6,572 nt of DNA. Origin: an uncultured Ruminococcus sp. GTDB lineage: Bacteria > Bacillota_A > Clostridia > Oscillospirales > Ruminococcaceae. Positions 2,683 to 6,572 of the stretch are shown here, piece by piece; position 1 is the first letter of the stretch; each line of letters opens with the position of its first letter. Under the pieces are notes generated by a model. It searched no databases. It worked only from the letters and a program-made list of their open reading frames with translations, and had not been told where the DNA came from. The position numbers and the translations under genes were made by a program. The stretch spans positions 1 to 6,572 of the forward strand of contig CAMOXW010000017.1 in the NCBI GenBank assembly GCA_946629405.1, in the 5' to 3' direction.

Positions 2683-3963
2683 ATGAAATACGGAAAGAAA
2701 AACCAGCTTGCATTGTTCAGCACGATTGCTCTGCTTGCAGCTTCGCTTACAACAGGATGCAGCAAAGTCGCAGAAAACAGCGACAGCACCTCGGACGGAG
2801 GCGTGCAGAATGATCCTGCCGCGGTAACGGATATCGCCACAGATGAGGCAGCTGTTCCGCCGACGGAAGCACCTGCCCCGGATAAGAGGGTACACGTTGT
2901 TGCTGCCGGCGACAACCTCATACATTACTCCGTCTACAAGAACGCTGAGGCGCTCGCAGGCGGCTACGGCTACGACTTCAAGCCTATGTATGAGAATATG
3001 CGCTATATCGTTGAAGGTGCGGATGTTGCGATACTTAATCAGGAGACCATAATCTCCCAGAGCAATGAGGTCCGCGGTGCCAATGGAGGAGCACTTATCT
3101 TCAATTCGCCCCCGGAGGTGGCTGACGCAGTTATCGACCTCGGGTTCGATGTTTTCACTATGGCAAACAACCACCTGCTTGACTACGGACTTGACGGTCT
3201 GGAGGAGTCGATAAACTTCTGGAACGCAAAGGCTCGTGAAAACGATATCACGGTCCTCGGAGCTTATCTCAGCGAGGAGGATGCGAACAATATCCGTGTG
3301 CGTGAGGTAAACGGCGTGAAGATCGCCTTCCTTGCATACTGCGAGCATATCAACGGCTTTGACGATCTGCTCATCGGCTCACACCTCAGGGTCATCAAGA
3401 ACAATGAGGAGGATGTTATCGAGCGCCAGATCAAGGCAGCAAAGCAGATTGCTGATGTGGTCATAGTTTCAGCTCACTGGGGCGCAGAGGACACGGTAAC
3501 GGTCAGGGATGACGTAAAGGTGCTTGCAGAAAAGATCATCGACTGGGGCGCTGATGTTATACTTGGCTGCCACACTCATACCGCCCAGACAATGGAATGG
3601 ATCACACGTCCGGACGGCACGAAGGGCTTTGTGTTCTACTCAATGGGCAACTTCATCTGTGCCCAGACCGACAACTTCAATGTTATTGGCGAGATGCCTG
3701 ATTTCGATATCGTCATTGACGGCAGTACCAACGAGGTCAGACTGGAAGATATCGGCGTAATACCGAATATTGTTCACTACAACTCACCTGACTTTGCCAA
3801 TATGAAGCTCTATCCGTATAGTATGTACACTCCCGAGCTTGCGAATTCCCACGGACTGCCCTACGCGATACCTCAGGGCACCTATACATCGTTCGGCTGG
3901 GACGTCGTAAATGACATTATCGACACCGCGATCCCGAAGGAATTCCAGAAGCTCGACAAATGA
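2683..3963 (+). CDS. CapA family metallophosphatase-like lipoprotein
   Basis: A 426-residue exported protein of the CapA family (poly-gamma-glutamate capsule synthesis type, calcineurin-like phosphoesterase fold). The N-terminus is basic, then hydrophobic to C26 in SLTTGC, suggesting a lipoprotein anchored outside the membrane, though the lipobox has Thr where Leu is usual. A low-complexity S/T/E/A/P spacer (about 27-67) links to the domain. Metal-site motifs follow in the family order: AAGDNLIH (74-81), LNQET (118-122), ANNHLLDYG (161-169), SAHWGAED (263-270), GCHTHTAQ (295-302) and YSMGNF (319-324). ATG 2683 has AGGAG 6 nt upstream. The gene has its own promoter and no capB/capC neighbours, so a role in poly-gamma-glutamate synthesis is unlikely. 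Cell-envelope or surface-polymer hydrolysis is a guess. It lies just upstream of the scaffoldin genes, which may be coincidence. Confidence 0.9.
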   Translation: MKYGKKNQLALFSTIALLAASLTTGCSKVAENSDSTSDGGVQNDPAAVTDIATDEAAVPPTEAPAPDKRVHVVAAGDNLIHYSVYKNAEALAGGYGYDFKPMYENMRYIVEGADVAILNQETIISQSNEVRGANGGALIFNSPPEVADAVIDLGFDVFTMANNHLLDYGLDGLEESINFWNAKARENDITVLGAYLSEEDANNIRVREVNGVKIAFLAYCEHINGFDDLLIGSHLRVIKNNEEDVIERQIKAAKQIADVVIVSAHWGAEDTVTVRDDVKVLAEKIIDWGADVILGCHTHTAQTMEWITRPDGTKGFVFYSMGNFICAQTDNFNVIGEMPDFDIVIDGSTNEVRLEDIGVIPNIVHYNSPDFANMKLYPYSMYTPELANSHGLPYAIPQGTYTSFGWDVVNDIIDTAIPKEFQKLDK

Positions 3964-4000
3964 TATTATCAATTAATAAAAAATTCATAAAGTGCACCGG

Positions 4001-4041
4001 GTACGGTTTTGAACAAAATTTATCAATTGTGCAAACCGTGC
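4001..4041 (+). terminator. Stem-loop after the capA-like gene
   Basis: Bases 4001-4009 pair with 4033-4041 over 9 bp (ACGGTTT/AAACCGT core, one G-U) around a 23-nt loop, 38 nt after the stop. The following sequence is A-rich, then TTGGTTTTA, rather than a clean T-run, so termination efficiency is uncertain. The right arm contains two GTGCAAA copies 9 nt apart (4029-4035 and 4038-4044), and a second AT-rich stem (4047-4055 with 4065-4075) follows. Confidence 0.35.
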
Positions 4042-4091
4042 AAAAATTGGTTTTACTGTTTATATAAAATACCAAAAACGGCATAAACCTA

Positions 4092-4120
4092 TTTACTTTT
4101 CTTTTTTGCTGTTATATAAT
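4092..4120 (+). promoter_or_regulatory. Promoter of the scaC leader
   Basis: TATAAT (4115-4120) is a perfect -10; TTTACT (4092-4097) is a 4/6 -35 at 17-nt spacing. Transcription would start near 4127, giving a 5' leader of about 320 nt before scaC. The -10 region shares GTTATATAA (4111-4119) with a copy at 4415-4423, near the end of the leader. Confidence 0.65.
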
Positions 4121-4126
4121 GAAATC

Positions 4127-4434
4127 AAGAATAAATATAGATTTGGGATTAAGTATCTCGTCACGGCAGTGTGATGCGTCTTTGCGTAAGTGCTGCGTGC
4201 GAAGCGAGTTTCCGGTCTGCTGCGGCAGTGAGTGCGTGTACATATGCCTTCTGTGCCGTTTGCGGACTTCTGCTTAAGTCCTTATGTATTACAAGGCTTG
4301 GCTTACCGGAGGAACGCTTCTTTCACGATCACTGCGTCCGGTAGGCTGCGCAAAATCCCGGTGTCCTGCCGGATCTCAGACAAGGATATAACCAAAGGGG
4401 CTGCTCGTTCCTTTGTTATATAACATTAATGAAG
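4127..4434 (+). ncRNA. Long structured leader RNA of scaC (candidate)
   Basis: This stretch holds no convincing gene but is GC-richer than its AT-rich flanks and full of inverted repeats. Pairings seen by eye: 4159-4164/4171-4176; CTTTGC (4180-4185)/GCGAAG (4199-4204); CTGC (4217-4220)/GCAG (4225-4228), or alternatively CGGCA (4223-4227)/TGCCG (4254-4258); GGACTT (4264-4269)/AAGTCC (4276-4281); a 9-bp stem 4301-4309/4338-4346, continued after an AGGA bulge by ACGC (4314-4317)/GCGT (4334-4337); CCGG (4358-4361)/CCGG (4369-4372); and the 12-bp stem 4386-4421. CGGCAGTG followed closely by TGCGT occurs twice (4164-4179 and 4223-4237). It does not match the T-box, SAM, cobalamin, c-di-GMP, RNase P, SRP or tmRNA motifs I know. 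A cis-regulatory RNA for scaffoldin expression is the inference; a separate small RNA is possible. Confidence 0.5.
4386..4421 (+). promoter_or_regulatory. 12-bp hairpin next to the scaC ribosome binding site
   Basis: ATATAAC-C-AAAGG (4386-4398) pairs with CCTTTGTTATAT (4410-4421) over 12 bp with one bulged C and an 11-nt loop. No T-tract follows, so it is not an intrinsic terminator. The right arm contains TCCTT (4409-4413), which could instead pair with AAGGA (4435-4439) of the scaC Shine-Dalgarno. The geometry would let a leader RNA expose or hide the start site; this switch is inferred. Confidence 0.5.
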
Positions 4435-4449
4435 AAGGAGGAAAATCAA

Positions 4450-5274
4450 ATGAAGACAAAAAAGATAGTCGTCGGAGCTATCGCCGCCTCAATGCTTTCA
4501 CTTTCAGTATGCTCAATTGCACCCGCTGTATATGCCGCAGGCGAAACAGTGCAGATATCCGTCAGCGAAACAACAGCAAGTGCAGGTGGGGAGTTCTCAG
4601 TGACAGTATCTCTGGCAGACATTCCGTCTAACCGCATTGCAGGTATTGATGTTGCTGTAAAGTTCGACAATACCGTATTATCCATCGATTCTGTAGAGGC
4701 TGGTCCTATCACAGAGACAGGAGCTGCTTCAGCGGATCCCTCATCATCAGACTCAGCACCCCTTTTCGATTGCACGATCAACGCTACAGAGGGTACTGTT
4801 GGTTTGCTGTGGAACACAATGCTTGAAGATTCAACTTACTGGATCAAGGATGACGGTGTGTTCTGTACTATCAAAGGTACAGTCAAGAGCGGTGTCGCAG
4901 ACGGTACAGTTTCCAAGCTGGAACTCGTTCCGTTCGTTCGTGAGACCCGCCCTGGCTCAGGCACAGCTAATGATGCTATCAGCATAGGTTACCTTGACGG
5001 TGAAGCCCAGGTAGAGTATGCCGTATCCACAAAGAACGGCAGCGTTACTGTAGGCACAGGCGCAGTCGCAACACTTCGCGGTGATGCAAACTGTGATAAT
5101 CAGGTAAATATGGCTGATGCTGTATTTGTTATGCAGAGTGTTTCCAACCCTGATAAGTACAAGCTTTCTGAAAAAGGCGAGAAAAATGCTGACGTTGACG
5201 GCCTTGAAGGTATTACCAACAAGGATGCTCTCAAGATCCAGCAGTACAAGCTCAATCTCATTACAGAGCTTTGA
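4450..5274 (+). CDS. scaC: ScaC-like adaptor scaffoldin (cohesin + dockerin)
   Basis: A secreted 274-residue cellulosome adaptor. In R. flavefaciens ScaC docks to ScaA through its dockerin and offers one cohesin of different specificity, widening the set of enzymes carried. A signal peptide (basic KTKK, hydrophobic core, cleavage near VYA29) is followed by one cohesin (about 33-201; starts VQISVSETTASAGGEFSVTV, with WNTM and GVFCTIKGTV further on) and a C-terminal dockerin (209-274). Dockerin loop 1 has Ca2+ ligands D212, N214, D216, N220 and D223. Loop 2 has D248, D250, T256 and D259, but L252 where a ligand is usual. ATG 4450 is chosen because AAGGAGG (4435-4441) lies 8 nt upstream; an in-frame ATG at 4429 precedes that Shine-Dalgarno. 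The modules are certain; the scaC name rests on size, module order and the following gene. Confidence 0.85.
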   Translation: MKTKKIVVGAIAASMLSLSVCSIAPAVYAAGETVQISVSETTASAGGEFSVTVSLADIPSNRIAGIDVAVKFDNTVLSIDSVEAGPITETGAASADPSSSDSAPLFDCTINATEGTVGLLWNTMLEDSTYWIKDDGVFCTIKGTVKSGVADGTVSKLELVPFVRETRPGSGTANDAISIGYLDGEAQVEYAVSTKNGSVTVGTGAVATLRGDANCDNQVNMADAVFVMQSVSNPDKYKLSEKGEKNADVDGLEGITNKDALKIQQYKLNLITEL

Positions 5275-5374
5275 TTTCCGTGATTATCTGATTTGTCCCC
5301 CTTACAAAGGAATACAAACCCATAAAATTTAGTTTAGTAATAGGCTCAAAACCTAAAGAAAGGAATTATTACAG
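5275..5374 (+). other. scaC-scaA spacer
   Basis: The 100-nt gap shows no intrinsic terminator and no promoter better than a poor TAAAAT (5323-5328) without a matching -35. A 4-bp hairpin (TAGG 5341-5344 with CCTA 5352-5355) sits just before the Shine-Dalgarno AAGGA (5360-5364), which is 10 nt from the next ATG. Read-through from scaC is the simplest reading. Confidence 0.45.
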
Positions 5375-6572
5375 ATGAAAAAGTTTATCTCTGCAGTCAC
5401 TTCAATGGCAATGGCTGCAACAATGGCAAGCGTAGCTGCTCCGGTATCAAATGCTGCTGACGCTACAAAGACACTTACAATTGCGTCTTATGCACAGTCC
5501 GGTTCTGAGTACGCTACTCAGGGCAGCAACATAACTATTTCTAAGGATGCTATCTCTGCTGGTGCTGTTAAGGTTCCCTGCGCTGTTTATCTCTCAGAGG
5601 ATACTGCTGACCTCCAGACTATTGCTATCCCGATCACAATCAACTCAGACCAGGCTGATGTTGCTAACGTAACATTCGATCTTTCTGACCCTGCAAAGCC
5701 TTACTTCGATACAAACCAGTCTATCACAACAGCTAAGGGCGAGGCTATCTCTACCAAGAATGCTGTAGTATTCGCTGCTGGTCTTGACGATATGGATGAC
5801 TATGCTCCTACAGGTATATTCAACCTCACAGTTGATTCTAAGCAGGCTGCTGCTGGTGCAGACAACTACTACATCGGCTTCGGCCAGACATTCCCGAGAG
5901 GATATTCATGGACAGGTGCTAAGTCTGACGATTACCCTGTATTCGTATTCGATGTAAACTTCCCGCAGAATACTGCTGCCGGCACATACAAGGTACAGTT
6001 CTGTAACTACATCAAGGACGACAAGGGCAACCCTGCTCTCCTTCTTGAGACAGAGTCAGCAAGATATGCTAATATCGGCGATTACTCCAACCTCGCTCTC
6101 AATGAGCTCACGATCACTGTTGAGGGAGAAAGCGATCCCGGCACAACAACTTCTACAACAACAACAACTACTACAACTACAACTTCTACAGTTACAACTT
6201 CCAAGAACGACGATCCCGTTGACGGCGATATCGTTCTCGACTTCGGCGAGTACAAAGCTAATGCCGGCGATAAGGTAGCAGTAAGCGTACTCCTCAAGTC
6301 CGGTGCTGAGAAGACTGTTGGTTCTTACGACGTTAAGTTCAAGATCGACAGCCCGCTCGCTATCACAGCTTACGGTTCATCTTCTGCTGCATACGGCGGA
6401 GCTGGCATTGAGACCAATAAGGAAACAATGCAGGCAAGCTTCATCTGCCTCGACCAGAACAGCGATCCTGTTGCTGGTGAAGCAGGCGGCGTAGTATTCA
6501 AGTTCAACGTTCAGGTTCCCGCTGATTGTCCGGACGGCGTTTACAACGTTGGTTTCGAGAACTGCGAGATCT
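5375..6572 (+). CDS. scaA: ScaA-like scaffoldin, N-terminal part
   Basis: A secreted structural protein of the cellulosome, running off the right edge; 399 codons are visible with no stop. A signal peptide (MKKFISAV..., cleavage near VSNA27) is followed by an N-terminal domain (about 33-252), then a Thr-rich linker (257-276, including ten consecutive Thr at 261-270). A cohesin begins near D285: DIVLDFGEYKANAGDKVAVSVLL, then SYDVKFKI (317-324) and VVFKFNVQVPADCPDGVYNVGF (373-394). The N-terminal domain ends with a cohesin-like strand pattern (VFVFDVNFP at 189-197, then GTYKVQF at 203-209), so it may be a diverged cohesin fold. ATG 5375 has AAGGA 10 nt upstream. Known R. flavefaciens ScaA proteins follow scaC and have an N-terminal domain, cohesins and a C-terminal dockerin that binds ScaB. 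The last modules are not visible, so another scaffoldin such as ScaB cannot be excluded. Rich GCT/TCT codon use suggests high expression. Confidence 0.8.
   Translation, partial: MKKFISAVTSMAMAATMASVAAPVSNAADATKTLTIASYAQSGSEYATQGSNITISKDAISAGAVKVPCAVYLSEDTADLQTIAIPITINSDQADVANVTFDLSDPAKPYFDTNQSITTAKGEAISTKNAVVFAAGLDDMDDYAPTGIFNLTVDSKQAAAGADNYYIGFGQTFPRGYSWTGAKSDDYPVFVFDVNFPQNTAAGTYKVQFCNYIKDDKGNPALLLETESARYANIGDYSNLALNELTITVEGESDPGTTTSTTTTTTTTTTSTVTTSKNDDPVDGDIVLDFGEYKANAGDKVAVSVLLKSGAEKTVGSYDVKFKIDSPLAITAYGSSSAAYGGAGIETNKETMQASFICLDQNSDPVAGEAGGVVFKFNVQVPADCPDGVYNVGFENCEI
6143..6202 (+). repeat. ACA/ACT microsatellite coding the Thr linker
   Basis: About twenty codons are almost all ACA or ACT, with a few TCT/TCC and one GTT. 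They encode the Thr/Ser linker between the N-terminal domain and the first cohesin. Such linkers are flexible and often glycosylated in cellulosomal proteins. The 3-nt unit means slippage would change linker length without breaking the frame. Confidence 0.85.

Follow-up and report, generated by a model that had tools for sequence, protein, structure and literature searches.

A conserved, structured leader RNA upstream of the scaffoldin gene scaC in Ruminococcus, possibly of a new regulatory class

The scaC locus and its promoter

The window analysed here is a stretch of 6,572 nucleotides of contig CAMOXW010000017.1 (assembly GCA_946629405.1) from an uncultured Ruminococcus sp. By Pfam it carries, from left to right, the start of a PEP carboxykinase gene (minus strand), a GtrA-like gene, a dihydrouridine synthase gene, a CapA-like gene (PGA_cap), scaC and the start of scaA. 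The scaC product scored 54.9 bits for cohesin (cut-off 24.1) and 22.8 for dockerin, marginally below the cut-off of 22.9, and its best solved relative is 'Scaffoldin C' (5lxv); the start of scaA scored 21.5 for cohesin, below the cut-off of 24.1. The gap between capA and scaC is 486 nt, and its scaC-proximal part is best read as the 5' leader of a scaC-scaA mRNA. The features treated below are the following.

4092..4120, + strand: leader promoter, TTTACT-17-TATAAT, 10 of 12 consensus positions, kept in relatives
4127..4449, + strand: leader RNA of scaC, 323 nt, putative start 6 nt past the -10 box
4127..4138, + strand: conserved 5' end, the 5' strand of P0 in about half of the relatives (43/95 leaders)
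4145..4159, + strand: hairpin P1 (4145-4149 with 4155-4159), in the best fold, weak covariation
4160..4175, + strand: hairpin P2 (4160-4164 with 4171-4175), near-invariant loop GGCAGU at 4165-4170
4178..4181, + strand: 5' strand of P3, GUCU, partner 4378-4381; two of five P3 pairs clearly beat shuffles
4192..4196, + strand: GCUGC, possible pseudoknot partner of the P2 loop (82/93 leaders)
4197..4206, + strand: 5' strand of a clade stem, partner 4315-4324 (clade C, 6 leaders)
4234..4247, + strand: hairpin with loop GUACAU (4234-4237 with 4244-4247), clade C
4337..4373, + strand: hairpin at the P5 position (4337-4345 with 4365-4373), 8 bp in the best fold
4378..4381, + strand: 3' strand of P3, AGAC, pairing with 4178-4181
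4386..4421, + strand: hairpin P6, 15 pairs, bulged base 4393, loop 4402-4406; present in folds and in matches to model R2
4435..4441, + strand: ribosome binding site of scaC, AAGGAGG, exact in 95/95 leaders
4450..5274, + strand: scaC, cohesin and dockerin by Pfam
5375..6571, + strand: scaA, start only, weak cohesin match

A consensus scan of 3900-5400 found two promoter-like sites where chance would give 2.5, so the window by itself is no proof of the promoter that the first-pass annotation had called good. The relatives do speak for it: TTTAC[TA] and TATAAT, with a spacer of 17, precede all 95 of the distinct homologous leaders, and in 93 of them the conserved leader row starts 6 nt after the -10 box. 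From this conserved promoter together with the position of the conserved row we infer the start of the leader; in all 95 the promoter sits far ahead of the place that corresponds to about 4430. A possible internal start at a TATAAT-like part of P6 was set aside, since inspection by eye found no kept -35 sequence ahead of it.

Further conserved DNA lies upstream of the promoter. The stretch TTGTGCAAACCGTGCAAAAA, which contains two GTGCAAA repeats, is found at 4027-4046 of the window; allowing one mismatch, 14 of 16 genomes carry a single copy, whose start lies in each case some 100 nt ahead of the leader, and a looser form was matched by 63 of the 95 leaders. It is perhaps a candidate binding site of a regulator. 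Between these repeats and the promoter a further stretch, GTTTATATAAAATACCAAAAA, is also conserved.

Occurrence of the leader in the genus

A search with ScaC gave 30 loci, and all 18 of those with a nearly full-length scaC had the same leader, its ends strongly conserved and its middle variable. We built covariance models of the first 82 positions (R1, 82 nt, trained on 19 leaders) and of hairpin P6 (R2, trained on 14), which the training leaders match by construction, having served to build them; E-values from these models are rough, and stricter filters were applied in searches of more than 40 genomes. R1 gave one strong match in 16 of the 18 genomes behind the ScaC and other loci. In the genus as a whole it matched 96 of 125 genomes at E ≤ 1, all except two (G103 and G088) below 1e-4, and in every one of the 96 the best match lay 94-308 nt before ScaC on the same strand (measured on fetched DNA for 63 genomes and by eye from coordinates, at 144-308 nt, for 33). 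Among the 66 fetched regions around R1 matches of those 63 genomes, scaC was downstream of the match in 64 (in four of which the first listed frame was longer or spurious and the position of scaC came from tblastn), and capA was upstream in 63 of these 64.

ScaC itself (E ≤ 1e-25) was present in 110 of the 125 genus genomes, and none of the 15 without it had an R1 match. The family sample (396 genomes) gave eight R1 matches, all in genomes of the genus list, and the order sample (394 genomes) gave three, two in genus genomes and one at E 0.095, so that nothing clear was found outside the genus in these samples. The last of the three (L153) lies at 19573-19676 of contig 94 of genome G711. An extra R1 match in genome G014, at E 0.054, proved to be a second real locus with capA and scaC. 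That genome thus holds two different leader-scaC loci, L134 on contig 318 with capA adjoining and L032 on contig 274, and is perhaps a mixed metagenome bin. Two extra matches in G022 (L135 and L136, E 0.19 and 0.41), with neither scaC nor capA nearby, were taken as chance, and further weak matches occurred in G062 (E 0.65), G095 (E 1.0) and G011 (E 0.53). As a rule there is one leader per genome, always adjoining scaC. The 116 leaders collected, 94 of them distinct, were joined by L007, taken from coordinates, to give the working set of 95, with lengths of 170-391 nt. Seven entries fell outside the scripted collection, and L007 was the only one of them added: L039 duplicates the position of L007 and L070 that of L131, L048 matches weakly, and L046, L063 and L065 were excluded.

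ScaC was present without an R1 match in 14 of the 125 genomes, and here we read the DNA before scaC at all 15 loci. R2 recovered P6 in eight of these genomes, where it accompanies a diverged 5' module (L151), a changed 5' module with a GUACA-type hairpin (L138 and L139), a second promoter and no recognisable 5' module (L141, L143, L145 and L148) or a shortened leader (L152); the other six genomes (seven loci) had neither P6 nor the 5' module. Thus the 5' module can be lost. R2 matched 103 of the 125 genus genomes at E ≤ 0.1, once in 98 and twice in five (G014, which has two scaC loci, and four whose second match is weak, E 0.04-0.07), and its match ended 21-23 nt before ScaC in the seven genomes whose coordinates were compared. 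By these numbers, and by its presence in genomes that R1 does not match, P6 has been retained in more genomes than the 5' module. At three loci without a leader (L140, L142 and L144) a common stretch, GTGTGGGTTACTATAAGTAAATTTAAGTGAAGTGTG, follows a second promoter upstream of scaC; it is perhaps a different leader element.

Folding and conserved helices

In its best fold, 4127-4455 forms 16 stems of at least four pairs, including P1, P2 and P6; of the 16 inverted-repeat pairs listed for 3960-4460, a count made without a chance control, five lie entirely inside 4127-4449. The fold of the window leader is modestly better than chance (z = -2.25, with two of 100 dinucleotide shuffles equally good), which by itself is only suggestive, so the case for structure is settled by the folds of the relatives. 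The 95 distinct leaders had a mean z of -3.23 against dinucleotide shuffles, 94 of them below -1 and 80 below -2, and ten clade alignments covering 86 of the 95 were all better folded than their column-shuffled counterparts (z = -2.0 to -8.2). The shuffles kept dinucleotides in these two single-sequence tests and in those of P5 and the P2 loop below; they kept them roughly or not at all in the tests of P0, P4, terminators, reading frames and ribosome-site pairing.

With its 16 stems and its well-folded relatives, the leader is structured as the first-pass annotation had proposed from at least six inverted repeats, and the collected relatives keep it through the genus as a long structured leader belonging to scaC. 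Two of the stems described there are present at other lengths. A 9-bp stem continued by a 4-bp stem across a bulge appears as an 8-bp stem (4338-4345/4365-4372, which an additional A-U pair, 4337/4373, could extend) continued across unpaired bases by 4348-4351/4361-4364, and the final stem beside the ribosome site (4386-4421) is a helix of 15 bp rather than 12, in which a single base bulges out. The homologues show covariation, though unevenly: good for P0 and P5, moderate for P3, weak for P1 and P2, while P6 is nearly invariant.

P1 and P2 were assessed in alignment A5, which holds 77 of the 95 leaders (74 distinct), L131 being excluded from the 5' blocks. Standard pairs filled 90.7% of the cells of P1 and P2 together over the 74 distinct rows (97.6% for P2), and at most 63% when the strands were slid by 1-3. 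The covariation score was 0.169 vs. 0.153 and was reached by 15 of 500 shuffles; changes on both sides were seen in ten cells (7 of 500 shuffles did as well) and in three pairs (371 of 500). As sequences, P1 and P2 are thus conserved and compatible with pairing, with weak covariation. The P2 loop can form at least five contiguous pairs with a downstream ACUGC or GCUGC in 82 of the 93 leaders tested, with 46.3 expected; the two others, L133 and L134, lack the loop pattern. By eye, a changed P2 loop and a changed partner still pair in L134, a single case.

P0 joins the first 9-14 nt to a UUUGUUCAU-like segment. Its pairing lies above the 95th percentile of shuffles in 43 of the 95 leaders and shows paired changes, e.g., GUG/CAC in L121 and L127; in the window no partner for 4127-4138 rises above chance, and several relatives are likewise at chance. 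P5 precedes the 3' strand of P3, and its sequence differs between clades while the pairing stays; a hairpin occupies its position in 68 of the 95 leaders at p ≤ 0.05, and the one in the window has a central pair probability of 0.97. P3, usually GUCUU/AAGAC and in the window GUCU/AGAC, is a long-range helix with moderate support: its five pairs are changed on both sides in 2, 3, 4, 0 and 1 leaders, counts reached by 36, 1, 0, 300 and 34 of 300 shuffles, and its probability exceeds 0.5 in just 16 of 82 leaders folded singly (0.0 in the window). P0 crosses P3, so the two would form either a pseudoknot or two exclusive folds. When one or the other was forced in nine leaders, the folds lay within 0.7 kcal/mol of each other in four (L075, L089, L097 and L124) and 2.5-11.5 kcal/mol apart in the other five.

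A further helix first noted by eye, P4 (AAACC/GGUUU), exceeded the 95th percentile of swapped partners in just 11 of 94 and 2 of 33 and was dropped. In clade C (six leaders) the stem 4197-4206/4315-4324 is 93% paired with two pairs changed on both sides, and the GUACAU hairpin is 95% paired with three. A hairpin loop like the latter recurs in the variable middle of many leaders, including L138 and L139, whose 5' module is changed.

P6, with its foot 13 nt before the ribosome site, has standard pairs in nearly all of the 95 leaders and an almost invariant sequence; L123 carries compensated changes. Since P6 hardly varies, the conservation may be for its sequence. Its outer pair is predicted to form with probability above 0.5 in 92 of the 95 leaders, and the Shine-Dalgarno sequence is predicted to be mostly unpaired in 80. 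The 3' arm contains UUCCUU (exact in 93 of the 95), complementary to AAGGAGG, and when the 5' arm was removed in silico the Shine-Dalgarno sequence became paired in 92 of the 95 leaders; segment-shuffled controls did so nearly as often (89.2%), which lends no real support to a ribosome site hidden by this arm. Hiding by the 5' strand of P3, which covers the site in the best fold of the window itself, fared no better, with at least five pairs in 10 of 94 leaders and in 15.0% of shuffled ones.

Possible functions of the leader

No family in Rfam 15 matched the window at its gathering threshold in a search with E up to 10 (the best score inside the leader was 23.5 bits for caiA, whose threshold is 55.5), and Rfam gave no match at 15 related loci; the statement that no known riboswitch class is recognisable here thus holds. 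Intrinsic terminators were found in two of the 95 leaders (0.2 expected), both overlapping P6, and not in the window, where looser rules gave one weak site at 4264-4281 with 1.3 expected. Attenuation by a terminator was rejected, terminator-like sites lacking in 93 of the 95 leaders. Searches of open-licence papers turned up no account of such an RNA at scaC or the scaffold genes, and the available portions of PMC12484212, PMC8040213, PMC3197198 and PMC2721979 do not mention one at scaC. The proposal of a candidate undescribed element thus finds no counterpart in Rfam or in that literature, and the scaC leader may represent a new class of regulatory RNA.

In the available part of a microarray study of R. 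flavefaciens FD-1, the RNAs of scaA, scaB and scaC rise about 4.5-fold on cellulose vs. cellobiose (PMC2721979). As the three rise together the operon is regulated, and as the response was measured as RNA the regulated step could be the promoter or the stability of the mRNA. The reading to which we incline, with modest confidence, is that the leader is a new family of cis-acting RNA that works through P6 on the translation of scaC or on the stability of its mRNA. P6 would keep the ribosome site open, protect the mRNA, or both, and the folded 5' module may tune this action in response to some signal or factor. The 3' arm of P6 could also leave the hairpin to pair with AAGGAGG, a step that complementarity permits and nothing further speaks for. 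The leader had at first been likened to an aptamer with an expression platform or to a protein-binding leader. What stands of this is the conserved, structured leader of scaC; a switch at the ribosome site finds no such backing, given a hidden-site test close to its control and a P6 that persists without the 5' module.

A tentative alternative that we take seriously is that P6 and the folded leader only stabilise the mRNA or direct its processing, protecting the 5' end or marking a cut, and sense nothing. A hairpin with so little variation, retained even where the 5' module is lost, would suit this role, as would the observation of the FD-1 change in RNA, and there is a precedent in the cip-cel operon of Clostridium cellulolyticum, where stem-loops set transcript stability and stoichiometry and so tune the mRNA levels of scaffoldin and enzymes (PMC4423207, PMC10311766). 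Those stem-loops, as far as the accessible text of these papers describes them, are intergenic, many at the 3' ends of genes, with mapped cuts, whereas the scaC leader is a multi-helix 5' leader known here from its sequence. A plain protector would, however, have no need of a near-invariant GGCAGU loop and a conserved first 60 nt.

A protein could well bind features such as a near-invariant loop or an invariant hairpin with a bulge. Control of translation or decay by a putative RNA-binding regulator with its site in P1/P2 or P6 is nonetheless a doubtful reading, to which the retention of P6 alone in some genomes lends some weight.

Translational riboswitches consist of a conserved 5' module followed by a hairpin adjoining the ribosome site, and the scaC leader has the same layout. 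A 5' module that binds a small molecule (e.g., a product of cellulose breakdown or a metabolite of energy state) and thereby changes P6 or the ribosome site would also agree with the conserved structured domain, with the near-invariant P2 loop and its pseudoknot-like pairing, and with the near-equal energies of the crossing P0 and P3 folds in four of nine leaders. We nevertheless consider a riboswitch unlikely: the two folds are well separated in the other five, the hidden-site test failed against its control, leaving no supported alternative pairing, and the element belongs to a single gene in a single genus and to no Rfam class. The nearest case described is the long, structured 5'-UTR of the xyl-doc cellulosomal cluster of Clostridium papyrosolvens, called a putative riboswitch with a convertible fold in the available part of PMC5815224. 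There it precedes enzyme genes rather than scaffoldin genes, carries terminator-like stem-loops and is proposed to block transcription until relieved by corn stover, whereas terminator-like sites occur in just two of the 95 scaC leaders; this comparison is one of descriptions, not of sequences. Should P0, P3 and the pairing of the P2 loop coexist, they would turn the 5' module into the kind of compact, pseudoknotted structure that binds ligands. The fuller claim, that this module founds a new riboswitch class which reads a signal of cellulose digestion and sets scaffoldin output through P6, is less likely again.

The remaining explanations are much weaker. Release of the leader to act in trans as a small RNA, which its size and fold would allow, is very improbable for an element that always adjoins scaC and has P6 directly before the ribosome site. 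We give still less credence to a short encoded peptide. Frames of 52-63 aa are open in the window leader, and beyond P2 two frames stay open slightly longer than in shuffled leaders (medians of 22 and 27 vs. 14 and 17 codons); when stretches of the window are translated, up to 38 of 94 other leaders match, a result that conserved nucleotides would also give. Yet 23 of the 95 leaders lack a start codon in their first bases, the frames that open there run for 5 to 69 codons, P2, counted from the 5' end, falls in each of the three registers (54, 22 and 17 of 93), and leader length itself varies widely. No start or register is kept and nothing marks any frame as conserved, so the leader holds no credible gene, as had been stated, and a leader peptide is unlikely. 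Conservation of the promoter or other sites in DNA rather than RNA merits next to no weight: conservation of the promoter and upstream element speaks for it, but the fold z-scores, the P5 pairing kept through sequence change and the paired changes in P0 and P3 tell against it.

We thus return to a cis-acting leader RNA with P6 at its core, which probably helps to control the amount of the cellulose-digesting machine. In ruminants, the cellulosomes of Ruminococcus play an important part in digesting fibre. The leader is common to most of the genus genomes examined, has a clear anatomy and comes with natural variants that have lost parts of it, so that its control is directly open to test; if the riboswitch reading is true, an entire genus would govern its cellulosome through a single RNA control point dedicated to it.
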